This document shows positions 1,061 through 13,766 of a DNA stretch of 64,000 bases, piece after piece; the first letter of the stretch is position 1; every line of letters starts with the position of its first letter. The notes under the pieces were generated by a model, which did no database searches, had not been told where the DNA came from, and saw only the letters and a program-made list of their open reading frames with translations. The DNA lies in assembly GCA_900318035.1 (NCBI GenBank), contig ONJC01000012.1, positions 1 to 64,000 on the forward strand, written 5' to 3'. The position numbers and the translations under genes are program-made. The stretch comes from an uncultured Methanobrevibacter sp. GTDB lineage: Archaea > Methanobacteriota > Methanobacteria > Methanobacteriales > Methanobacteriaceae.

Positions 1061-1099
1061 TCCTTAAAAAAAAAGGCAAATGAGAGATTGTCTCTCATT
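1061..1099 (-). terminator. Hairpin and U-tract terminator of the MFS gene
   Basis: AATGAGAGA and TCTCTCATT (1079-1099) form a perfect 9-bp stem with a 3-nt loop. On the minus strand the stem is followed by a run of T. The MFS stop codon lies inside the stem. Confidence 0.7.
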
Positions 1100-2612
1100 G
1101 TTTTTTAATATTTTTATTTTTTATCCGCAGCGTTATAATTAACATAGCTGCTAACACGATGGCTAATCCATACATTACGGAAGCCATTGCATTTTGAATA
1201 ACTATATCTGCAGTATTTACAACAATACTATCTTGTCCGTCTATTGTATCTAATTTTTGGAAGTAATCATAGACTTCTTGATGGAATTGTTCATCTCCTG
1301 AATAATCAGGTGCATAGGTATCGATTGCAGTACTAATACCGCCCATAACTCCAAGAATTAGAATTATTCCAATGATTGCTGTACCCAATGAGGAACCTAA
1401 TGTCTCACCAGTTGTAATAATACCAGATGCATTATTTTGGCCTTCAGCAGGAACATCGAATAATGCAACATCCGCTGCTAAAGCCATCATAAAACCAATA
1501 CCTGTCCCAAGTAAAAACTGTCCTGGAATTAAATCCAGCATGTTTACATTTAATTTAAATTGATAACTTAAAATCAGACATCCTACAATAGATATTATAC
1601 ATCCTATTGCCATGAGTGTCTTGTGATTCAGTTTTCCTATTAGTTTTGGAGTGGTCAATGAAAAAATAAACAAAGCCATAACAAATGGAAGTGAAGCCAA
1701 ACCCGTATCGAATGGATTTAACTGCAATACAGTTTGGAAAAACAGAACCATTACAAAAAATGTTCCCGATATTACAATATTATATAATAACTTAATAGAT
1801 GTACCTATACGCAAATTTTTGTCTCTAAATAATTCAACATCAAGCAATGGCACCTTGCCTGACCTTTTTCTTTTGAGTTCAAACCATATAAAGATTGCTA
1901 AGACTATCAATCCCAAAATTATCTCAATTATGCTGGTAGCAAAATCCTTAGTCAGAGTCAAAATACCAAGCACAAGCAAAAGAAGACATATACCGGAAAG
2001 TATAGCACCAATAATATCAAGATCGCTTTTAGATTCAGTAGGCTTAAAATCAGGTATTTTATTTTGCATTACTAAAATAAATAAAATGAATATTAATTCA
2101 AATGCGAAAGTGTATCTCCAGCTGAAAAAAGTTGTAATAAGCCCACCAAGGAGCGGAGCTAAAATATCTGCAAGTCCTGCCATTACCCCGAGAGTTGCCA
2201 AAGCAATTGTACGCTTTCTGCCGGAATATATTCCGCTTATTATTGAAACTATGGCAGGCAGCATTAATGCCGCAGCAACACCTTTAATCGCTGCCCATCC
2301 GACAAAAAACATTGTAACACTTGAACTTAATACTGCAGCAAATATTCCTATACCAAAAAGTGCAGCACCAATTACAAACAGTTTCTTTTTACCAACTATG
2401 TCCTGAAGTTTGGTACTGAACAGTATCAACGCAGCAGTGATAAGAGTACAAAACGACACAATCATTTGAATAGTACTAACATCAGCATTCAAATCAACAA
2501 CAATTCGAGAAATGCTAACATTCATGAAGAAAGAGTCCAACACTATAATAAAGGAAGCACAAGCCACAACTATTAACGGAAACCAAGAACTCTCGTTAGC
2601 CTTTTCATTCAT
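1095..2612 (-). CDS. MFS drug exporter, DHA2 (EmrB/QacA) type
   Basis: This is a 505-residue membrane transporter, predicted to export drugs or other small molecules using an ion gradient. The first helix carries 'VLDSFFMNVSISRIVVDL', the signature D1 region of DHA2 transporters. The 'DIVGKKKLF' loop between helices 2 and 3 is motif A. Hydrophobic segments fit about 14 helices, and the length is normal for the family. A strong ribosome binding site, AGGAGGATTAAT, precedes ATG 2612. The gene stands alone: the next gene upstream is divergent and a decayed gene fragment lies between them. The substrate cannot be read from sequence. Confidence 0.88.
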   Translation of the reverse strand: MNEKANESSWFPLIVVACASFIIVLDSFFMNVSISRIVVDLNADVSTIQMIVSFCTLITAALILFSTKLQDIVGKKKLFVIGAALFGIGIFAAVLSSSVTMFFVGWAAIKGVAAALMLPAIVSIISGIYSGRKRTIALATLGVMAGLADILAPLLGGLITTFFSWRYTFAFELIFILFILVMQNKIPDFKPTESKSDLDIIGAILSGICLLLLVLGILTLTKDFATSIIEIILGLIVLAIFIWFELKRKRSGKVPLLDVELFRDKNLRIGTSIKLLYNIVISGTFFVMVLFFQTVLQLNPFDTGLASLPFVMALFIFSLTTPKLIGKLNHKTLMAIGCIISIVGCLILSYQFKLNVNMLDLIPGQFLLGTGIGFMMALAADVALFDVPAEGQNNASGIITTGETLGSSLGTAIIGIILILGVMGGISTAIDTYAPDYSGDEQFHQEVYDYFQKLDTIDGQDSIVVNTADIVIQNAMASVMYGLAIVLAAMLIITLRIKNKNIKKQ

Positions 2613-2804
2613 ATTTATTAATCCTCCTAATTTTAAAAAATATTTTTACATGCTCTTTTAAACATGAACATAAGTATATTTGATTTCCCAACGATTAAAT
2701 TTTTGGATGGAATTTTTACATAATCAGCAAGAACACCACAATTCTGTAAAATTGATTTTCAAATGCATTCTATGAACATCAAATATCAAAGGCCTAACTA
2801 AAAA

Positions 2805-2962
2805 CTACATCAATCTAGTTTGAGCATCAATATAGCGGGGTTCACAAACATCATTGACAACATAACTCTCTTTTACCTCACTATCAACAACGGCGAATTA
2901 AGATTATGCAACTTCTGGTTCTTTTTGACCAGTTTCATATAGGCGTTGGCATAACACTCTTC
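2805..2962 (-). pseudogene. Displaced 3' end of a DUF1848 gene (copy 1)
   Basis: The minus strand reads ECYANAYMKLVKKNQKLHN, then a one-base deletion, then a C-terminus ending EPRYIDAQTRLM. This matches the last 50 or so codons of the intact DUF1848 gene at 10609-11532. Homology starts abruptly at the codons for the Cys-Tyr-Ala-Asn motif, and no upstream coding part is present. It is therefore a gene fragment and not expressed as a protein. Confidence 0.85.
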
Positions 2963-2964
2963 AA

Positions 2965-2983
2965 ATTATCTACTACTTTTTAG
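2965..2983. repeat. ATTATCTACTACTTTTTAG motif, copy 1
   Basis: This motif abuts the breakpoint of the displaced DUF1848 3' end. Near-identical copies are at 8916-8933 and 8984-9002, again beside a DUF1848 3' end. It is a candidate element end or recombination site. Confidence 0.6.
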
Positions 2984-3163
2984 TTAGAGTTGTTTGATAG
3001 TAACGAACAAATATTGCGTATCAAATGCTCTCACCATAATGTTATAAAATTAAAAAAGATTTGAAAGTAAAAAAAAAACTTTAAAAGCAATTCACCGCAA
3101 CATCCCCATTTAATTATTATTCCATATCTTTTTGGAAAAAATTATTTAACATCAAAAAACTAA

Positions 3164-3180
3164 TTTAATATATATTTTTA
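3164..3180 (+). promoter_or_regulatory. TATA-box region of the CDP-alcohol phosphatidyltransferase gene
   Basis: TTTAATATATATTTTTA lies 25 to 40 bases before ATG 3205. No ribosome binding site is seen, so a leaderless or very short-leader transcript is likely. Confidence 0.5.
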
Positions 3181-3204
3181 AAGAAAAATGCGATTTTGAT
3201 TGAG

Positions 3205-3693
3205 ATGAACAGATTACTGATTAACTGCATAACATCATTAAGAATATTTTTCGGATTCTTATTTTTATTCTGTGTCCTGTTTGATTTAAACACGACTTAT
3301 CTAATCGTCATATTCATTTTAACAGCAATTTCTGATGTTAGCGACGGATGGCTTTCAAGAAAATACAATCTTTCATCTGATGAGGGTGCAAAGTTTGATG
3401 TAATCTGTGATTTTATATTCATTATTCTTTCCACATTCGCCCTGATTTTAATTGATTTGATTCCATTATGGTTTTTAGTAATAATTATCTTAAAATTAAT
3501 TGAATTTTTCAAAACCAGCGATGAAACACTGGTCTATGAAAAATTTGGCCATTTTGTTGCTTTAATGTTTTATGTATTTCCATTAGTGGCCATTTTAATA
3601 AATAACAAAATCATAGTATTGATATTAGCCATTTTCATTACGATTTGTGCTTTAATATCCTCTTTAAGGAGAATTCATCAAAAATTTTATTAA
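3205..3693 (+). CDS. CDP-alcohol phosphatidyltransferase family membrane protein
   Basis: This small (162-residue) integral membrane enzyme should transfer a phospho-lipid group from a CDP-activated lipid to an alcohol. The family signature DxxDGxxxRx8GxxxDxxxD is complete: 'SDVSDGWLSRKYN' followed by 'GAKFDVICD'. About five to six hydrophobic helices are visible. ATG 3205 is preferred over an in-frame TTG at 3196 because of the TATA-box distance. The gene lies just upstream of the damaged fumarate-reductase-like genes in the same direction. Its alcohol substrate is unknown. It is shorter than typical family members of about 200 residues but the motif is intact. Confidence 0.82.
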   Translation: MNRLLINCITSLRIFFGFLFLFCVLFDLNTTYLIVIFILTAISDVSDGWLSRKYNLSSDEGAKFDVICDFIFIILSTFALILIDLIPLWFLVIIILKLIEFFKTSDETLVYEKFGHFVALMFYVFPLVAILINNKIIVLILAIFITICALISSLRRIHQKFY

Positions 3694-3723
3694 TTATCTA
3701 TTTTAAATATAATCTTTGATTAT

Positions 3724-4280
3724 ATGATATCTCTTAGAAAAATAAACACATTATTAATAATTGTCATTGTGCTGATGCTTTTAAATCATGCAGTGTTATC
3801 TCTGTTGTATCTATATGGCATTATAAGTTATTCTCCAGATTTTCAAATAACTGGAAGACGTCTGTTTTATCCTGTAGTTGCACATATCATCATAAGCATG
3901 TATCTCTACTTTAAGGACAAGTCAAGAGGTGTAAACAGATACCCAACTTGATTTCCGATACAACACAGCAGCTGATTTCCGGAATCATGATAATTGTTTT
4001 TGTAAGCCTGCACATATTGGGATACTCCTTCAATCCGCTGGGAGAACAAAGCACATTTAATTTTAGTTTATACCATTTTATAGTTGATACTTTAATGTTT
4101 GTTTCAATAGCTGTGCATTTAAGAGTTTCAATTCCTAAATTCATGATATCATTAGGATTTCTTGAAAACAAGGACGAACATGTGAACTTTAAACGAAATG
4201 TGAACTGAGCAGTATTGATAATATTGATTGTCCTGATTCTTGGTGAAGTAATGTATTATGTTGGAGGTGCATTATGGTAG
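3724..4280 (+). pseudogene. Broken membrane-anchor gene upstream of the FrdA-like gene
   Basis: Two reading frames (3724-3951 and 3948-4208) and an in-frame tail (4209-4280) look like one former gene of about 185 codons. A frame change lies near 3940-3950. A TGA at 4206 interrupts it, after which a clean hydrophobic helix (AVLIILIVLILGEVMYY) continues to a TAG that overlaps the FrdA start codon. Five to six helices are visible. Several carry histidines (LNHAVLS, VVAHIII, SLHILGYS, YHFIVD, AVHLRVS), a pattern like haem-b or quinone-type membrane anchors. Whether it bound haem is inference; these methanogens are thought to lack cytochromes. It could also be two small membrane proteins. Confidence 0.6.
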
Positions 4281-5860
4281 ACATAATCGTAGTTGGAGCA
4301 GGCATTGCCGGTTTAACAGCATCAATTAAAGCCTGTGATAAGGGTGCAAACGTTTCATTGATATCTTCCGATTATTCTGAACGCTCACAGTCAGTGATGG
4401 CAATGGGAGGGATAAATGCAGCACTTAATACCAAAGGGGAAAATGACTCAACAGACCAGCATTTCACAGATACATTGAATGGAGGCTGTAAAATAAACAA
4501 TGAAAAGGCCGTGGAAATGCTAACCTCTGATGCACCTCAAATTATAGATTGGCTTGAAAGGATAGGCACAAGCTTTTCCCGTGACGAAAATGGCAATGTT
4601 GACATGAGAAACTTCGGAGGCCAAAAGAAAAAAAGAACCGTGTATGCCGGATCAAGAACCGGCAAGCAGATAGTATCCTCTCTTGTCAGTTTATGCCGTA
4701 AAAGAGAAACTGAAGGTAAAATTAAGCGTTTTGTAGGATACAGATTTTTGTCACTGATTTTTACCGACGAAAATGAATGCTGCGGCATCAACTGCATCCA
4801 TGAAGATACACAGGAACTAAGATCTTTTATTGGAGATGCAGTCATCATCGCTACCGGAGGATATAATTCCCTTTTTGGAAAAATACTTGGATCAACTCAA
4901 AACGACGGATTTGCTACTGCAAAACTGTTTACACAGGGTGTGAGATTAGCCAATCTGGAAATGGTCCAGTATCACCCAACCACAGTTAAGACCCCTCAAA
5001 AAAGAATGTTTATAACCGAAGCTGCACGTGGTGAAGGAGGAAAACTCTTTGTGATGAAGGACGGCAAACCGTGGTATTTCATGAAGGATTTCTATCCGGA
5101 GCTTGCTGATTTGATGCCGAGGGATGTCGTTTCAAGAAGCATTTTCAAGGTTTCGGATGGTGGTAAAAAGGACGTTTATCTTGACTTGACACATTTGGAT
5201 GAGTATACAGTTAAAGTCAAGCTGGATGAGGTATATGAAATATGTGAGAAATATCTGAATTTAAATCCATTAAAAACCCCAATTCCAATATTTCCTGCAG
5301 TTCATTATTTCATGGGAGGCATACAAACCGATGAAAATCATAAAACCAACATCAAGGGATTGTATGCTGCAGGCGAATGCTCATGCCAGTATCATGGAGC
5401 AAACAGACTGGGAGGAAATTCACTTTTGGGAACGGTTCATGGAGGATGGATTTCAGCAGAAAATGCTGTTTTGGAAAAGCCAAAAGGAAATGTCATAAAC
5501 AGTATCGATGAAGAATTGGAGTCATTTAAATCATATGCTCCAAAGGATAAATCCCTGCAGGATACTTTAAGCGAAATATCTCAGATAATGAACGATTCCC
5601 TGGGAATTTACAGAAATGAAGGTGATTTGATGGCTGCACTGGACAGACTGGATAATCTGGACACAAATGTCAATGCAAAATATTATGATTATCTTAAAGT
5701 AAAATTATTAGTGATTCTTTCAAAGGCAAGCATTTTATCAGCACTTGAGAGAAAGGAATCAAGAGGAGCTCATCAAAGGACTGACTATCCCGAAAGCGAT
5801 GACAGGTATAAAAAATCCATCTGTGCAATGTATGATGATGAGAATATAGTGATAGAATGA
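4274..5860 (+). CDS. Fumarate reductase / succinate dehydrogenase flavoprotein subunit
   Basis: This FAD protein (528 residues) should interconvert fumarate and succinate. The N-terminus has the dinucleotide-binding motif 'VGAGIAGLTAS'. Active-site motifs are present in order: 'QYHPTTV', 'TEAARGEGG', 'PRDVVSRSI', 'FPAVHYFMGG', 'GECSCQYHGANRLGGNS' and the C-terminal 'SRGAHQRTDYPESDD'. The histidine that covalently holds FAD in bacterial FrdA/SdhA is replaced by Gln in 'RSQSVMAMGG', so FAD is probably bound non-covalently, as reported for the methanogen thiol:fumarate reductase TfrA. The ribosome binding site GGAGGTG precedes ATG 4274. The gene overlaps its neighbours on both sides, so it is translationally coupled. 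It could be called tfrA by homology. Confidence 0.88.
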   Translation: MVDIIVVGAGIAGLTASIKACDKGANVSLISSDYSERSQSVMAMGGINAALNTKGENDSTDQHFTDTLNGGCKINNEKAVEMLTSDAPQIIDWLERIGTSFSRDENGNVDMRNFGGQKKKRTVYAGSRTGKQIVSSLVSLCRKRETEGKIKRFVGYRFLSLIFTDENECCGINCIHEDTQELRSFIGDAVIIATGGYNSLFGKILGSTQNDGFATAKLFTQGVRLANLEMVQYHPTTVKTPQKRMFITEAARGEGGKLFVMKDGKPWYFMKDFYPELADLMPRDVVSRSIFKVSDGGKKDVYLDLTHLDEYTVKVKLDEVYEICEKYLNLNPLKTPIPIFPAVHYFMGGIQTDENHKTNIKGLYAAGECSCQYHGANRLGGNSLLGTVHGGWISAENAVLEKPKGNVINSIDEELESFKSYAPKDKSLQDTLSEISQIMNDSLGIYRNEGDLMAALDRLDNLDTNVNAKYYDYLKVKLLVILSKASILSALERKESRGAHQRTDYPESDDRYKKSICAMYDDENIVIE

Positions 5861-6524
5861 AGGTAAAAATTAAAATTGATGACAATTATCAGATTTTCGA
5901 CTATGAAGGTGATTTAAACATATCTGTTATCACTTTGCTTGAAAAATTGGACTGGCCAATTGAATATTCATGCAGCTGTCTTCAAGGCATTTGCGGCGCA
6001 TGTGCCATGGTTATCAATTCAGAACCTAAACTTGCATGCAAAACATTTCTAAATGAAGAAAAGACAGTTATAGAAGACAATCAGATTACAATTGAACCTC
6101 TATCCAAATTTCCATTAATCAAAGATTTAAAAGTCGACAGATCAATTCTGTTTGATGCAATGACAGAATGTGAGCTATGGCTTGAAAACGATTCTGAATA
6201 CAATCCAAAAGATTTGGATTTTGAATATGAAATGTCATTGTGCCTGATGTGTGGATGCTGTACCGAAGTATGTCCCAATTATAAGTTAGGAGATTTTGTA
6301 GGAGCACCTGCTACCGTATCGGCATCAAAATTAGTTAATCAGGAAAGTGATGAAGAGCACTTGAAAAATATGAAAAAAAATATAAAAAAAGGTTTTTTTC
6401 ACATTGTGTTAAATCAATTTCCTGTGAAGATGTCTGTCCCATGGAAATCCCAACCCAAAGAGCAATTTCAAAAATGAACAGAAAATCCGTATGGAGAATC
6501 TGGCAACTCATGAATCTTGATTAA
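5857..6524 (+). pseudogene. Fumarate reductase iron-sulfur subunit, frameshifted near its C-terminus
   Basis: The N-terminal 2Fe-2S ferredoxin domain has 'SCSCLQGICGACAM'. The first 4Fe-4S motif is 'CLMCGCCTEVCPN' (about residue 128). In the open frame the protein ends at 6477 with a non-homologous tail. In another frame, directly after a poly-A/poly-T stretch at 6370-6396, the expected second cluster motif appears (HCVKSISCEDVCPMEIP), continuing to a TAA at 6522. One missing T in the run of seven T would explain the shift. The repaired protein has about 222 residues. It lacks the HdrB-like CCG domain of canonical TfrB, so it resembles FrdB/SdhB more than TfrB. A sequencing error is possible. 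Confidence 0.8.
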
Positions 6525-6637
6525 ATCACTACATTATCCCTTAAATCGATTAAATACATATGAATAATTCCATCAGGAGACATGTTCACATCATCCGGGT
6601 TATTAAGTATTTTGGATAAGACATTGGCGTAAAGCAA
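6521..6637 (-). pseudogene. Remnant of a DUF4143 ATPase gene (C-terminus only)
   Basis: The minus-strand frame ends with NMSPDGIIHMYLIDL. This matches the end of the ATPase at 9045-10265 (NMSRDGIKHMNIIDF), and the DNA is also similar. A stop codon sits directly before the fragment and nothing upstream matches. It lies between the frameshifted FrdB-like gene and the ABC-type membrane gene. Confidence 0.65.
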
Positions 6638-6676
6638 TCAAAACTGTCCAATACCTATTGCATGATTGAAATTCAA

Positions 6677-8665
6677 TTATTCCTCTTTTTGATAGTCAAT
6701 AATCACAAATATCCTCTTGATGCTTGAAAATGCAGTTTCAATAGAAGCCATTGAGGCGCTTAGTTTCTTAATAGGCTTTGTCATCAATTGTCCATACATA
6801 ATAACTGCCAATAAGGTTCCCAGCTGTATTTCATTAACTGATAAAAAGTAAACACCTGCCATATAAACAGTTATATTACTTACATTTGTTAAAAAGGTTG
6901 TAATAGGCCCCATAACATTAGTAACATTTCGGGATTTGGCATAATAGTCAATTACAGTTTGGTTGATTTTTTTAAATCCTTTTTCATGGAATGAATCACG
7001 ATTTGACAGACCTCTTTCAAAATAGCTCATCAATCGCCCCAAATGCTTTTGATGACCATCGTAATAGGATTTAGATTTATAATCACATAAATAAAAGCAA
7101 ATCACATAAACAGGCAGTATCATCAGATATATTAAGCTCAATCTAAAGTCTGTCATCACCATCAATACCATTACAAGGACTATCGATAGGATTTGCGCAA
7201 AAATTTCAGTAATACGTGAAGAAACGAACTCCCTGATGTTCATCACATCATTGTTTAATCTAGATAGAATCTGACCCTTTGAATTTTCCTGAATGAATCC
7301 TGAACCAACAGCATCAAGTTTATCAAATAATTTCATTCTTAAATTATATGCAACCTTTTCACCGATAACTCCCATGATTCTCTTTGGAGGTACTTTAAAC
7401 AGATACCCTGCAGAATATAATGCCAACAACAAGGCAAGATTAGTGTAGATGGCAAAATCGTTAGATGAATTCATGTTAGAACTCAATAAATCAACCGTCT
7501 TTCCTGCAACTTTAGGAGCATAAACCATGCACAATGTAGATGCCGTGAGTAAAATCATTGATATTACTGTTTTGGCCTTATCGTCTTTCAATATTCTGCG
7601 GAATTTTTGGAAGATATCTTTTCTTTCAGCCCATATGCCCTTATCCTCACAAGCAATATCATCCTCAACAATTTCTATTTCTTTTGGATTATCCGTTGTG
7701 TTTTCAGATTTTATGATTTTATCTTCAATATTAAGGACTTCTTCTAAACGCACGGAAGTGGCATATGCACGTGGCCACCTATCAATTAAAGCTGGAACAA
7801 ATGTCAAGGTAGAAACGAAGTATGCAACATATATCAGAATAATAAATGAATCAATTACACTGTCAGTTTCAAAGCCAATAGTGTACCCGGAATTGATCAT
7901 TGCAAATGTAATCAGAACAACAGCATATAAACCCCATAATAATACTGGGCCCAGGTAATATTGACTTAAGATATACTTAACGTTTTTATCATATGAATTC
8001 TCACATGCCTTTTCAAATTCAACTTCATACTCCTGTTTATTAAATGGAATCTTGAGGGCAATATCGGTGATTTTGGAGAGAAACATCAGGTTTAACTTCC
8101 CATATGTCTTTTTAGCTCTGAAAAATATTTTTACAATTTGTTTCATTCTAAAAATTACAAGAAGGGCAATAACACCAACAAATGACAAGAAGAATATCGC
8201 ATAAGTCCCATCAATCAATGCTATTTCATATATAATTGCTGTGAGTGTAACTGGAATCAGCATTAATTGTGTGAGTATTATCACTATAAATCCCTGTTCT
8301 GAGGACATTCCTCTGGTTGACCGTGTGGTTAGCCCTGAAATTTTAAAGTTGGCAATTTCCTCATCAGGCAAGTTCATTAGAATATGAAATATTTTCTCAC
8401 GTATTGTATATGCTGCTTTTGAAGCCACTCTTGTTGAGAGAAAAGAGACAGCATAAATGGAAATCATCACAAAGGCAGTATACACTAACATGTATAATCC
8501 TGATTTGAAAAGCAAGCCTATTTTCTGTTCTTTAACTCCAGTTAAAGCCATGCTGAACAAATCAATTATTTCCATTTGAAAAAATGTCTGAATAATCAGT
8601 AATGCAAAAATGATTACTATTGTTTTCCATTGGAATTTTAATGCAACACTCAAAAACTTTTTCAT
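6677..8665 (-). CDS. Double ABC-exporter transmembrane protein lacking ATPase domains
   Basis: This 662-residue protein is two type-I ABC exporter membrane domains in tandem. TMD1 spans about 1-325 and ends 'RLEEVLNIEDK'. TMD2 spans about 350-655 and ends 'SSIKRIFVIIDYQ'. Both ends fall exactly where an ATP-binding domain would normally begin. No Walker A, signature or Walker B motif is present, although a full TMD-NBD-TMD-NBD exporter has about 1,150 residues. Other exporter features are there, including 'KGQILSRLNNDV' in the TMD2 coupling-helix region. The linker is short and acidic. No ATPase gene of ABC type is in the window. It may be a deletion derivative, use ATPases encoded elsewhere, or have another role. 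Confidence 0.75.
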   Translation of the reverse strand: MKKFLSVALKFQWKTIVIIFALLIIQTFFQMEIIDLFSMALTGVKEQKIGLLFKSGLYMLVYTAFVMISIYAVSFLSTRVASKAAYTIREKIFHILMNLPDEEIANFKISGLTTRSTRGMSSEQGFIVIILTQLMLIPVTLTAIIYEIALIDGTYAIFFLSFVGVIALLVIFRMKQIVKIFFRAKKTYGKLNLMFLSKITDIALKIPFNKQEYEVEFEKACENSYDKNVKYILSQYYLGPVLLWGLYAVVLITFAMINSGYTIGFETDSVIDSFIILIYVAYFVSTLTFVPALIDRWPRAYATSVRLEEVLNIEDKIIKSENTTDNPKEIEIVEDDIACEDKGIWAERKDIFQKFRRILKDDKAKTVISMILLTASTLCMVYAPKVAGKTVDLLSSNMNSSNDFAIYTNLALLLALYSAGYLFKVPPKRIMGVIGEKVAYNLRMKLFDKLDAVGSGFIQENSKGQILSRLNNDVMNIREFVSSRITEIFAQILSIVLVMVLMVMTDFRLSLIYLMILPVYVICFYLCDYKSKSYYDGHQKHLGRLMSYFERGLSNRDSFHEKGFKKINQTVIDYYAKSRNVTNVMGPITTFLTNVSNITVYMAGVYFLSVNEIQLGTLLAVIMYGQLMTKPIKKLSASMASIETAFSSIKRIFVIIDYQKEE

Positions 8666-8754
8666 AATACTAAATTAGTTTTAAAATTAAAAAAAATTTT
8701 CCATCACTGTGCCACGAATATATCTCCTATGAATTAAGAAGAAAAATTTAGCCA

Positions 8755-8913
8755 TTACATTAATCTTCGTTGTGAATCAATATAGGTTGGTTCATTGACT
8801 TCCTTTACAACATCATTCTTTTTAACATCACCAATCAGCAAGGGCGAATCCGAATTGTGCAATTTCTGGTTCCTTTTGACCAGCTTCATGTTGGCGTTGG
8901 CATAACACTCTTT
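8755..8913 (-). pseudogene. Displaced 3' end of a DUF1848 gene (copy 2)
   Basis: An uninterrupted frame of 52 codons reads KECYANANMKLVKRNQKLHN and ends NEPTYIDSQRRLM. It matches the C-terminus of the DUF1848 gene at 10609 and begins at the same Cys-Tyr-Ala-Asn point as copy 1. There is no start codon or upstream domain. Confidence 0.87.
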
Positions 8914-8915
8914 AA

Positions 8916-8933
8916 ATTATCTACTACTTTTAG
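8916..8933. repeat. ATTATCTACTACTTTTAG motif, copy 2
   Basis: One T shorter than copies 1 and 3. It lies directly against the truncation point of the DUF1848 fragment, exactly as copy 1 does. Confidence 0.6.
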
Positions 8934-8983
8934 TGAAATTTGTTCTACATCATACGAACAAAAAATGATTAAAAAGTAAATGA

Positions 8984-9002
8984 ATTATCTACTACTTTTT
9001 AG
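8984..9002. repeat. ATTATCTACTACTTTTTAG motif, copy 3
   Basis: Identical to copy 1, and 68 bases from copy 2. It lies just downstream (minus strand) of the DUF4143 ATPase gene. Confidence 0.6.
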
Positions 9003-9044
9003 ACAGCTTAGTTTCATAATAGAAAGTCCCAAATAACCATTTTC

Positions 9045-10265
9045 TTAAATTTCATCACCTAATAAAAAGTCAATTATGTTCATATGTTTTATTCCATCTC
9101 TAGACATGTTAAATTCATCCATACTAAATACATATGCATCATATTTATCAGGAATGTTTAATAATGGTGTAAATTCCCGTTCTATTGTTTCATCAGAAGC
9201 TAAAAGATAAGCAACCTGAATATAAATTTTATTATTCTTATTTTTAGCTATGAAATCTACTTCCTTATTTTTAACCCAACCCACTTTAACTGAATATCCA
9301 CGTCTTAAAAGTTCAATATACACAATATTTTCAATTATTCTAGGTAACCATTTATTATTTTCATCAACCAACGCCTGATGAAATCCATGATCCGTTAAAT
9401 AGTATTTTTCATCTGTAGATAAGAGTTTTTTTCCAAGTATGTCTTCACGTAGCACTCTATGGCAAAATATTGATTCAACAATGAAGTTTGTATAATTATT
9501 GATAGTTTCTCTTGAAGTTCTTTTACTTTCAGATTTTAAAAAATTTGCAATACTTTTTTTAGAGAATGTCTGCCCTATGGAATTCATAATATAATAAACG
9601 AATCTTTTAAATGTGTCAATTCTTCTGATTTCATGTCTTGAAAGTATATCACTAATAATGATAGAATCATAGATGTCAAGAAGTGCATTGATTTTACCAT
9701 CTTCATCTTTTAAAGAAAGCAATGACGGCATTCCACCATATTCTATGTATTGCATGAAATATTCATATATCTTAGTTTTATCCATTTTAATATTGTTAAT
9801 TTCATTATGATACTTTAAAATTTCTTTAAATGAAAAAGGATAAATGTTTATATGAACATATCTTCCTGCGACCAATGTTGAAAGTTCAGATGAGAACAAT
9901 TTTGAATTAGATCCAGTAACATAAATATCACAATCAAAAGAAACCCTATATGAATTAATTGACTCTTCCCATTCATCAACCAATTGAATTTCATCAAACA
10001 ATAAATAGACCTTACCCTCAATATCTTTAACCTTATCTAAAACAACTTCATCCAATTCTTTTGATGTCTTAATATGTCTATATTTCACATTTTCTAATGA
10101 TATGTAAATTATATTCTCATCAGCAATACCTAAACCCTTAAGTTCCTCGATAATACTTTTTAAAAATGTTGTTTTTCCACATCTACGCAACCCAATAATA
10201 ATTTTAATAAAATCCGTGTCCAAATAGTTATAAAAAACATTAAGATAATCTTCTCTTTTAATCAT
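9045..10265 (-). CDS. AAA ATPase with C-terminal DUF4143 domain
   Basis: This is a 406-residue ATPase. Walker A is 'GLRRCGKTTFLKSI' (about residues 26-39) and Walker B is 'KVYLLFDEIQLV' (about 90-101). A sensor-like 'VTGSNSKL' follows. The C-terminal third (about 200-330) is the winged-helix and DUF4143 region, and the end holds a nuclease-like fold with 'EVDFIAKNK'. The family is common in archaea and accessory DNA, and its job is not established. GTGATT precedes ATG 10265. The gene is alone between a tandem repeat and a displaced DUF1848 end, inside the proposed accreted region. A C-terminal remnant of a relative is at 6521-6637. Confidence 0.85.
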   Translation of the reverse strand: MIKREDYLNVFYNYLDTDFIKIIIGLRRCGKTTFLKSIIEELKGLGIADENIIYISLENVKYRHIKTSKELDEVVLDKVKDIEGKVYLLFDEIQLVDEWEESINSYRVSFDCDIYVTGSNSKLFSSELSTLVAGRYVHINIYPFSFKEILKYHNEINNIKMDKTKIYEYFMQYIEYGGMPSLLSLKDEDGKINALLDIYDSIIISDILSRHEIRRIDTFKRFVYYIMNSIGQTFSKKSIANFLKSESKRTSRETINNYTNFIVESIFCHRVLREDILGKKLLSTDEKYYLTDHGFHQALVDENNKWLPRIIENIVYIELLRRGYSVKVGWVKNKEVDFIAKNKNNKIYIQVAYLLASDETIEREFTPLLNIPDKYDAYVFSMDEFNMSRDGIKHMNIIDFLLGDEI

Positions 10266-10318
10266 GCAATCACATCTTAATAATATATTAGATTATAATC
10301 ATATATAAATTTGTCAGT

Positions 10319-10450
10319 TATAACTTACAAAATTACAAAAATAAAAATAAAACAAAAGTATAACTTACAAAATTACAAAAATAAAAATAAAACAAAAGTA
10401 TAACTTACAAAATTACAAAAATAAAAATAAAACAAAAGTATAACTTACAA
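10319..10450. repeat. 40-bp tandem repeat, three full copies plus a part
   Basis: Units at 10319-10358, 10359-10398 and 10399-10438 appear identical, followed by 12 bases of a fourth. Each begins TATAACTTAC and is otherwise A-rich. The repeat sits in the 343-base gap between the DUF4143 ATPase and the DUF1848 gene. The rest of the gap (10266-10318 and 10451-10608) is AT-rich and holds nothing else recognisable apart from likely ATPase promoter sequence. Confidence 0.92.
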
Positions 10451-10608
10451 CATTATAATATAAAACAAGAAATACGTGATTTCACAGAACTTCAAAAAAT
10501 CTCTTTTTAGCAACAAATAAATTCAAATTGAATTCAATATATTTTAGAGGTTTATTTAAAAGTATCCTGAAAAAAAATGATTTAATTAAAAATGATTCAT
10601 GAAATTAA

Positions 10609-11532
10609 TTAAAATAGTTTCTGTTGTGTGTCAATATAGCTGGGTTCATCGACTTCCTTTATAACATCATTCTCATTAACATCACCAATCAGCAACGGCG
10701 AATTAGGATTATGCAACTTCTGGTTCTTTTTAACTAGCTTCATATTGGAGTTGGCATAGCAATATTTGCACCCATGCATGCAGGTATTATATAATCCAAT
10801 ATCCCTCCCCATTAAACAGTTGCATTCGCGATTGTGATATTTTCCTTTAGGGACTTTTAGATTATTTCCAATAGCCTTTTCCAACACCTGCTGTGTCATG
10901 CATCCTGATGAATCAAAACCAAACTGATCAAGCAATGTGCCCTCAACGCATGTCTTCATTTGAATGCCATATTCTTTAGCGGTTTTAGCGAAATTCTCAC
11001 CAATGACCAAACGTTCATCAACTGTTACCTCACGGGCCTCAGGAAAATTCCTCAATACTTTCTGATACAAATCAATGAAACTTATTGTGCAGTCTGAAGT
11101 GTATTCATGCAGTTCTGATGCCATTTCCTCAAACTTTTCAGTGTGAAAATCAAGATCGTACTTTTCAGTTATGAAAATCGGATCATATCTCCAGGACACT
11201 GCATTGATTCCTACAATCTCAGACAATTGCTTAAATGTTTTTATGACTTTTTTATAATCGGGAACATTGACTTCAATGTCTTTATCATAAGGGTTTATTG
11301 TTGTAAACCAAAACTGATTATAATCTGACAGCCTGTCCAAATTCTTTACCAAAGGCTTTGGATTTTTGGAGCAGAAACATATTACATCGACGGTTTTGGG
11401 ATTGAAGTTATACTTGTAAATCTGATTGTTATAGGGGTTTTTGCTGAGTACAAAACCTTCATCAATTCTGTTCAAGAACCATTTAGTAAAAAAAGCAGGA
11501 ATATCAGTTCTTGTACCTGTATTAAGTATCAT
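10609..11532 (-). CDS. DUF1848 family protein (radical-SAM-like cysteine motif)
   Basis: This 307-residue protein belongs to DUF1848. It begins MILNTGTRTDIPAFF. The reading frame is open for another 49 codons upstream, but that part overlaps the thiolase gene and reads as low-quality Arg-rich sequence, so ATG 11532 is chosen. The C-terminal third holds 'RDIGLYNTCMHGCKYCYAN', a CxxxCxxC-type cluster similar to radical SAM enzymes, plus 'CNCLMG' just before it. The enzymatic role is unknown. The start codon lies just after the terminator of the thiolase gene. The last 52 codons occur twice more, at 8755 and 2805. Confidence 0.85.
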   Translation of the reverse strand: MILNTGTRTDIPAFFTKWFLNRIDEGFVLSKNPYNNQIYKYNFNPKTVDVICFCSKNPKPLVKNLDRLSDYNQFWFTTINPYDKDIEVNVPDYKKVIKTFKQLSEIVGINAVSWRYDPIFITEKYDLDFHTEKFEEMASELHEYTSDCTISFIDLYQKVLRNFPEAREVTVDERLVIGENFAKTAKEYGIQMKTCVEGTLLDQFGFDSSGCMTQQVLEKAIGNNLKVPKGKYHNRECNCLMGRDIGLYNTCMHGCKYCYANSNMKLVKKNQKLHNPNSPLLIGDVNENDVIKEVDEPSYIDTQQKLF

Positions 11533-12728
<1,196 letters not shown>

Positions 12729-13766
12729 TTACATTTTAATTTTGCCTTTGAATTTAGCATAAACCGCATAATCAACATATGTTTTATCATTGATGATTTC
12801 CTGTGTTTTTGGAGCTAAATCTCTTCTTTCTTTAATTTCATCTTTAACATGTATTGTGAATCCATCACTTCCTGCACCTGAACCGTATGAAATGACAAAA
12901 ATCTTATCTCCAGGTTCTGCTACATCCAAAATATTGGACAATGCCAATGGCACTGCACCGGAATAGGTGTTACCAATATTAGGAGTTAAAAGTCCCTGTT
13001 TGATTTGTTCAGATGTGAAACCTAATTTTTTACCTGCCCTGAGGTAGAATTTACCGTTAGGCTGATGGAAACATGCATAATCATAATCTTCAGGTTTTGA
13101 ATCGGTTTCTTCGAACAGCATTTTTGCTGTACTTAAAACATGCTTGAAGTAAGCAGGCTCTCCTGTAAAACGACCTCCGTGAGAAGGATAGTTTTCACCT
13201 TCTCTCCTGTAGAAATCAGGAGTGTCGGTTGTGAAACTGCATGTGTGTTCAATGTCAGCTATTGTATTTTCATTTCCGATAATGTAAGCTGCACCACCTG
13301 CTGATGCTGTGTATTCCAAAGCGTCTCCAGGCGCACCCTGTGATGTGTCAGCACCAATAGCCAAACCGTATTCAATCATTCCTGATTTGACAAGACCCAT
13401 AGTCATTTGGATACCTGCGGTTCCTGCCTTACATGCGAATTCCAAATCAGCTGCAGTCAATTTTGGAGTTGCGCAAATCGCTTCAGCAACAATGGAAGCA
13501 GTCGGCTTTACTGCATAAGGATGTGATTCGGAACCAACATAAACAGCACCGATTTTACTTGGATCAATTTGAGCTCTTGCTAGTGCATATCTAGCAGCAG
13601 TTACTGCAATAGTAGCAGTGTCTTCATCAGCAGAAGGAACGGATTTTTCATTGACAACCAATCCATTTGATAGGGCTACAGGGTCATCTCCCCATACCTT
13701 TGCAATTTCCTCTACTTTAATTCTATAAGATGGCACGTGTGCACCATATCCTACTATTCCTACCAT
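12729..13766 (-). CDS. Hydroxymethylglutaryl-CoA synthase
   Basis: The enzyme makes HMG-CoA from acetoacetyl-CoA and acetyl-CoA, the second mevalonate step. It has 345 residues, typical of the archaeal form. Catalytic residues are visible: Glu in '[11 protein letters not shown]', Cys in '[11 protein letters not shown]' and His in '[10 protein letters not shown]'. The ribosome binding site is AAGGTGATTTA before ATG 13766, and an AT-rich promoter region lies at 13790-13860. It is first in an operon with the thiolase, which suits substrate hand-over between the two enzymes. Confidence 0.93.

Follow-up and report, generated by a model that had tools for sequence, protein, structure and literature searches.

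A probable three-cassette, integron-like array at the DUF1848 gene of a Methanobrevibacter genome, and its proposed mobilisation in trans by a proviral integrase

How does the end of one gene come to lie three times in a row, with other genes between the copies? The question is raised by a stretch of 64,000 nucleotides from an uncultured Methanobrevibacter sp., hereafter the window (contig C48, bases 1-64000), whose source genome lies in 56 contigs and is ~88% complete. Here the last codons (~52) of a DUF1848 gene are found twice more downstream in the same orientation (8755-8904 and 2805-2953). A preliminary description of this DNA had recorded both copies and explained them by stepwise accretion of mobile DNA through site-specific integration; its coordinates were right within a few bases, the tails starting at a core that lies 8-9 bases inside its limits of 8913 and 2962. 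In our assessment the interval very probably represents three cassettes of an integron-like array, on which a proviral integrase probably acts in trans. Its order is DUF1848, (DUF4143), (ABC_membrane, Frd-like, CDP-alcohol transferase), (MFS), and the elements that carry the argument are as follows.

10609-11532, minus strand: DUF1848 gene, which anchors the array (Pfam match to DUF1848 at E=1.9e-95 over residues 3-261 of 308)
10609-10758, minus strand: replaceable tail of the DUF1848 gene, with the core at codons ~258-261
10750-10759, minus strand: core (attB-like) of the intact gene, CTATGCCAAC
8906-10758, minus strand: cassette 1 (gene tail, 40-bp tandem repeats, DUF4143/AAA_14 ATPase, arms)
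8906-9019, minus strand: arm region of site 1, with direct arms at 8983-8999 and 8915-8931, 68 bp apart
8906-9019 region, minus strand: imperfect palindrome between the site 1 arms, TTGTTCGTA..(n)..GAACAA
8896-8905, minus strand: core of site 1, TTATGCCAAC
8755-8904, minus strand: displaced DUF1848 tail 1, reading frame intact
2955-8905, minus strand: cassette 2 (tail 1, ABC_membrane, FrdB-/FrdA-like, membrane open reading frames (ORFs), CDP-alcohol transferase, arm)
2955-3015, minus strand: arm region of site 2, with a single arm at 2964-2980
2945-2954, minus strand: core of site 2, TTATGCCAAC
2805-2953, minus strand: displaced DUF1848 tail 2, frameshifted
1064-2954, minus strand: cassette 3 (tail 2 and an MFS transporter, 1095-2612), far-end site missing

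The core, (C/T)TATGCCAAC, is the start of both displaced tails and their matching point within the gene, so that the common start proposed in the preliminary description stands and the breakpoints coincide at TTATGCCAAC. Aligned base by base, tail 1 is 83% identical to the gene copy over 160 nt, and tail 2 is 74% identical to the gene copy and 87% to tail 1. What had been missed is an upstream arm: AAAAGTAGTAGATAATTT.AAGAGTG stands directly upstream of both detached cores and is absent from the intact gene. The 17-mer AATTATCTACTACTTTT has three copies in the window (2964, 8915, 8983) where 0.07 are expected, and 0 of 100 dinucleotide shuffles reach three. The conserved Pfam DUF1848 domain reaches as far as residue 261, where the core lies, which leaves the exchanged tail beyond its limit.

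The same site is found across the genus. Our genome set holds one genome per species (cited by handles beginning with G, loci by handles beginning with L), mostly metagenome-assembled genomes (MAGs); G014 and G029 are single-contig and G010 lies in six contigs. A tblastn search with DUF1848 against these relatives returned 20-odd genes and dozens of detached tails, most of them beginning at residues 244-264 of 308 and lying in largely single-orientation groups. Aligning the sequence upstream of the detached tails revealed one conserved region of ~110 bp, in which two direct arms AAAAGTAGTAGATAATTY lie ~67 bp apart with the palindrome TTGTTCGTA(n)GAACAA between them, followed by RAAGTGTG|TTATGCCAAC; most DUF1848 gene copies have TGC in place of TGT. 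The resulting site model has 89 matches among the loci read, and the site region is matched in 50 of 67 Methanobrevibacter species genomes (the query includes the tail, and some matches are the gene itself). Among 84,980 bacterial and archaeal species genomes the exact arm–core pattern occurs in 29 stretches, mostly of rumen and goat gut origin, and all of them are Methanobrevibacter.

Between these sites lies a common pool of cassettes. The core-to-core units in the loci read (n=69) have a median length of 2.0 kb (range 1.0-7.7 kb) and hold 1 to 6 genes in either orientation, and the same units recur in several species beside different neighbours and in different orders. The MFS transporter cassette has seven core-to-core copies in six genomes; genomes in which it recurs are G014, G018, G019, G064, G066, G071 and G090. 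An HxlR+CbiA+TauE cassette is shared by five genomes, HXXEE+MarR by four, and PdxS+PdxT by three, as is the ABC_membrane+Frd-like+CDP-alcohol transferase cassette, the window's among them; further cargo identified by Pfam includes DUF4143/AAA_14 ATPases of several families, DUF2099+HxlR, RhuM and others. Cassette 2 has a full-length counterpart in G001 (L070:906-6921) at 96.2% identity and another in G076 (L183). The cargo of cassette 1 is 99.4% identical to that of G014 and 96.5% to that of G018, in the same position, with chromosome flanks mostly 75-95% identical; the window species, G014 and G018 each have a different second cassette after it. Cassette 3 (window 1064-2863) is 98.3% identical to G016 L073:9251-11051, where homology ends at 1064. 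To the two islands of ~2 kb and 6 kb of the preliminary description, the MFS transporter cassette after the last tail is to be added as a third. Repeated insertion at one point likewise holds, now not as the local history of a few unrelated islands but as the use of genus-wide, reusable cassettes without integrases.

The extra copies might have come from faulty assembly or from duplication of the gene's 3′ end on the spot, given a genome in 56 contigs and array contigs that often end in repeats throughout the genus. The detached tails have a common upstream arm, which is missing from the gene; the cassettes are found as units in other places, and the same architecture is present in single-contig G014 and near-complete G010. 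This explanation is refuted by the arm sequence and the cross-species recurrence, and we give it practically no weight.

Where the exchange takes place can be seen in recent copies. In 20 between-species cassette pairs with cargo at least 99.3% identical (not independent, several sharing a cassette), the right-hand core is preceded by 60 bp of 100% identity in 20 of 20; past the core, identity drops to the background level wherever the following cassette is not common to both. Where it is not shared, the next tail has a mean identity of 73%, set against a random tail-to-tail baseline of 71.7 ± 8.5. Of 60 arm-attached cores, 55 have T as the base before TATGCC, and of 15 gene-attached cores, 13 have C there (Fisher p=6e-10, T/C counts). 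This base follows the left flank, which places the exchange to its right, inside TATGCC. One tail forms the live DUF1848 end in G087, and the 100% identical tail and cargo are detached in G019; 60% of the differences among detached tails are at third codon positions, consistent with each detached tail having once served as a coding end. Both the drop at the core and the identity between a live gene end and a detached copy in different species support site-specific integration in which a replacement end displaces the old one, as the preliminary description had proposed.

No integrase was found in the window island, as had already been noted, and none in nearly all cassettes of the genus; the recombinase must therefore be supplied in trans, most likely by a related provirus. 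The best candidate comes from contig 13 of G004, where a provirus with a large terminase lies inside mrtB (the mrt genes of G004 are what we take them to be by sequence recognition). Its integrase is of tyrosine type and at least 342 aa long (L092:11213-12241), with a sequence that shows HxxR and a C-terminal Y and a Pfam Phage_integrase score of 28.7 bits against a cut-off of 27.1, and its start lies ~150 bp from a full arm site. That site is followed by the core, the remainder of mrtB, and then mrtD, mrtG and mrtA (attR, L092:12395-12518). The other provirus end reads mrtB...ACTGTTATGCCAATAGTATAGAAATTATCTACTACTTTT, core and inverted arm (attL, L112:3053), the right arm being the inverted arm sequence. 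The two ends have ~10 bp in common, and mrtB is unbroken in G010, G014 and G016, the junction sequence having been read in G010 and G016. As in a provirus integrated by an arm-type tyrosine recombinase, the integrase gene adjoins attP, and attL and attR are hybrids of attP and attB. The usual locus of G004 holds a DUF1848 relic only, perhaps the reason for the position of its provirus in mrtB.

Integrases 93-100% identical to that of G004, some of them truncated, were found in G004, G089, G064, G080, G019 and G014, and a broken one of the same clade (clade A, 77% identity) in G081. They adjoin an arm–core site in six of seven cases, the exception (G080) lying at a contig end; a cognate integrase at the same site, together with genuine attL and attR, is a further support for the mechanism of the preliminary description. 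A general integrase search (PF00589) gave several hits per genome with no link to the arrays, and clade A alone lies at the site: by inspection of coordinates, the ~150 remaining listed integrases are all more than 1 kb away from any listed site. An NCBIfam scan of the clade-A integrase gave XerA/XerC/XerD-type matches far below cut-off (XerA-type, 49.5 bits against 220). In the PDB, DUF1848 has no relative and the integrase has marginal matches only (XerA, 5hxy, E=0.005).

An attL with inverted right arm also lies in DUF1848 itself in G009, G072, G079 and G089, and each time a second DUF1848 gene comes after it, of viral origin and ~40% identical to that of the host. Judged from these junctions, the virus cuts the host DUF1848 at the core and brings its own version, whereas cassettes restore the tail instead. 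Behind truncated DUF1848 genes at L245 (G089) and L246 (G064), the viral paralog has the core as well, with a host-like tail match after it; the viral DUF1848 paralog may itself be a platform.

A further junction joins cassettes to a virus. A two-cassette block of 6,198 bp is 100.0% identical in G064 (L175:9366-15563), where it lies behind a DUF1848 tail at an attR, and in G089 (L174:4029-10226), where it lies within proviral gene c11. The gene is uninterrupted in G064, reading CCGTTATATTGATG, and the insertion point in G089 is CCGTTA|TATTG, with junctions CCGTTA|CGCCAAC on the left and TTGTTA|TCTTGATG on the right; GTTA alone is common to the c11 target and the block site. The two forms of c11 make an occupied/empty pair at a secondary target and put a cassette block inside a virus.

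These junctions bear on whether homologous recombination between repeated tails or arms could move the cassettes without a dedicated recombinase. The tails are repeated at 70-90% identity, some breakpoints lie within the tail, and the ends of window cassette 1 are blurred; yet the 6.2-kb insertion into c11 had GTTA alone in common with its target, the provirus attL and attR share ~10 bp, and in recent pairs arm identity is 100% as far as the core and drops there. As the sole mechanism it is contradicted, and we consider it very unlikely; it survives as a secondary process that probably, by the pattern of breakpoints, reshuffles tails. Systematic mapping gave two classes of left breakpoint, at the core and within the tail, the latter recurring near model positions 208 (207-208) and 237 (236-239). 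That the tail is always carried whole with its cargo had to be rejected, as window cassette 1 does not fit.

The other alternative, that unrelated islands, each with its own integrase, accreted in tandem at the 3′ end of DUF1848 and shed these integrases afterwards, is improbable, if less so. It gains from the position of the site near a gene's 3′ end, from the existence of a provirus of matching specificity and from integrase remnants in some arrays (G019, G014, G081). It does not explain why intact sites enclose the same small cassettes (1-8 kb, median 2 kb) again and again, in varying order and with 99-100% identity across species, and independent decay would not yield the same ends and contents in cassettes that nearly all lack an integrase.

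The integron-like array remains our preferred reading, and several observations weigh against it. Most of the genomes are MAGs, in which repeats invite misassembly, and many sites retain a single arm. About half of the recent pairs have a left tail of 100% identity, and most others one near 87%, which is why we take tails to be reshuffled too, and older pairs break near model position 208. The clade-A integrase was not found in the window's own genome (~88% complete), and viral contigs, searched with the clade-A integrase and with the site pattern, gave no free virus that carries this attP.

The array could work as follows. The sequences themselves show the site and its core, arms that travel with their cargo, cassettes reused across species, attL and attR, and an integrase gene beside the site; a circular intermediate, catalysis by this integrase and transfer by virus are proposed on that basis. 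A cassette consists of a 52-codon DUF1848 tail, cargo genes and arm sequences, and in its putative circular form the joint would read arms–core–tail. A tyrosine recombinase would join the circle's core to (C/T)TATGCCAAC near the DUF1848 3′ end; the incoming cassette would take first place, its tail becoming the new protein C-terminus, and the previous tail would come to lie downstream, after the arms that have just arrived. Run backwards, the reaction would excise cassettes singly or as blocks. The recombinase would most likely be the clade-A integrase of a tailed provirus, resident or incoming, whose attP has the same arms and core with the integrase gene beside it. The same provirus inserts in DUF1848, with its own paralog, or rarely elsewhere, and can carry a cassette block, which makes it a plausible vehicle between species. 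New cargo might arise, as one possibility, by imprecise provirus excision that captures adjacent host genes, and the replaced tail may bring a benefit of its own.

Comparison with known systems places the array close to several of them. Integrons, including archaeal integrons, and clusters of attC sites lacking integron-integrases (CALINs) likewise consist of arrays of small mobile cassettes, each ending in a recombination site with a short core, and CALINs are arrays without a local integrase that can be used in trans (PMC9668308). Exchangeable cassettes, each ended by a recombination site, are found here as in integrons. Unlike integron integrases, however, the clade-A integrase fits no dedicated IntI model in NCBIfam and belongs to a tailed provirus; the core GTTATGCCAAC (GTTATGC) departs from GTTRRRY, position 5 not being R, and does not fit the paired cores GTTRRRY / RYYYAAC of attC sites, which recombine as folded single strands. 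The platform here is a protein-coding gene whose end is replaced, and a cassette has between 1 and 6 genes, which may point either way. Cis-mobilizable elements (CIMEs), known from tandem accretion with integrative and conjugative or integrative and mobilizable elements, are also recombinase-less, att-flanked, stacked at a gene end and mobilised by a relative (PMC5704250). Recombinase-less, att-flanked elements stacked at one attB in a gene are what we observe, yet these measure 1-8 kb, form a genus-wide shuffled pool, are archaeal and, as we propose, provirus-driven, and have their site 52 codons before the stop. No conjugation families are among the Pfam matches listed for the cargo, and the neighbouring integrase belongs to a terminase-bearing provirus.

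Staphylococcal cassette chromosome (SCC) elements at rlmH form stacks at one gene's 3′ end, many of them without a recombinase, and are moved by serine recombinases (Ccr). The stacking and the frequent lack of a recombinase are alike; the candidate here is a tyrosine recombinase with arm-type sites and not a Ccr (serine recombinases were not searched for separately). Within the genus, Msmi-Pro1 of M. smithii is a provirus with an intragenic att of 11 bp, and the review of archaeal tyrosine recombinases that describes it treats single intragenic proviruses, with no mention of cassettes or accretion (PMC8371274). It resembles the present system in its tyrosine integrase, short core in a protein-coding gene and Methanobrevibacter provirus, and differs in being a single insertion. 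In the literature covered, most subscription papers being outside its scope, DUF1848 is mentioned nowhere, and an integron-like system in Methanobrevibacter was not noticed.

We are evenly divided on the wider proposition that Methanobrevibacter evolved an integron-equivalent system independently, with a viral integrase, a coding gene as platform, a genus-wide metabolic, transport and regulatory pool, functional replacement termini and proviral ferrying between species. If true, major methane producers of ruminants and other guts would possess a gene-exchange platform, with between-species traffic of vitamin B6 synthesis (PdxS/PdxT), transporters, and sulfite-exporter-like and fumarate-reductase-like modules. 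A viral attachment site could then seed an integron-like array, which bears on integron origins. The system would also supply methanogen genetics with a candidate recombinase and a candidate integration site, and would account for scattered gene fragments that annotation would label pseudogenes.

The surroundings of the array are conserved.

11559-13766, minus strand: thiolase and HMG-CoA synthase, conserved left chromosome flank
11559-12716, minus strand: thiolase
12729-13766, minus strand: HMG-CoA synthase

This flank is kept at the DUF1848 locus of the 13 species compared and also in G011 and G034. In these two single-contig genomes thiolase is succeeded by two small genes and c74, and neither DUF1848 nor an array is present. 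In G007, G010, G014 and G088, the last with one short array, the far limit of the array is close to the same chromosomal genes (c74, c73). The cargo of the window comprises the following.

10319-10455: tandem repeat of cassette 1, 40-bp unit, 3.4 copies, 98% match
9045-10265, minus strand: DUF4143/AAA_14 ATPase of cassette 1 (Pfam)
6677-8665, minus strand: ABC_membrane protein of cassette 2 (Pfam)
5857-6477, minus strand: FrdB-like protein of cassette 2 (Pfam)
4274-5860, minus strand: FrdA-like protein of cassette 2 (Pfam)
3724-4208, minus strand: small membrane ORFs of cassette 2
3196-3693, minus strand: CDP-alcohol transferase of cassette 2 (Pfam)

The alignment with G014 and G018 is interrupted at the tandem repeat, whose copy number seems species-dependent. 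The product of 6677-8665 (662 aa) matches ABC_membrane twice, and Pfam found no ABC ATPase domain in it; several genomes have it in their cassettes, sometimes together with the Frd-like operon and sometimes not. The membrane subunit beside FrdA (3724-4208) consists of two ORFs of 75 and 86 aa where G001 and G076 have a single ORF of 185-186 aa, and looks, by that comparison, frameshifted in the window. A DDE transposase ORF (14-772) lies where the contig begins, on the side on which cassette 3 lacks its far-end site, perhaps because an insertion or deletion took it away. Elsewhere in the window's genome, L101 (G000:C28:1-16000) holds a second arm–core–tail site at 6706-6969, apart from DUF1848 and with other cargo around it. 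Finally, four tails (two in G019, one each in G001 and G016; L067:7577, L069:2804, L071:9652, L073:11148) have another common upstream context of ~110 bp, which contains neither DUF1848 nor arms, ends ...GACAAGCAATTATTG|TTA, and is apparently a second recurrent platform for cassette insertion.

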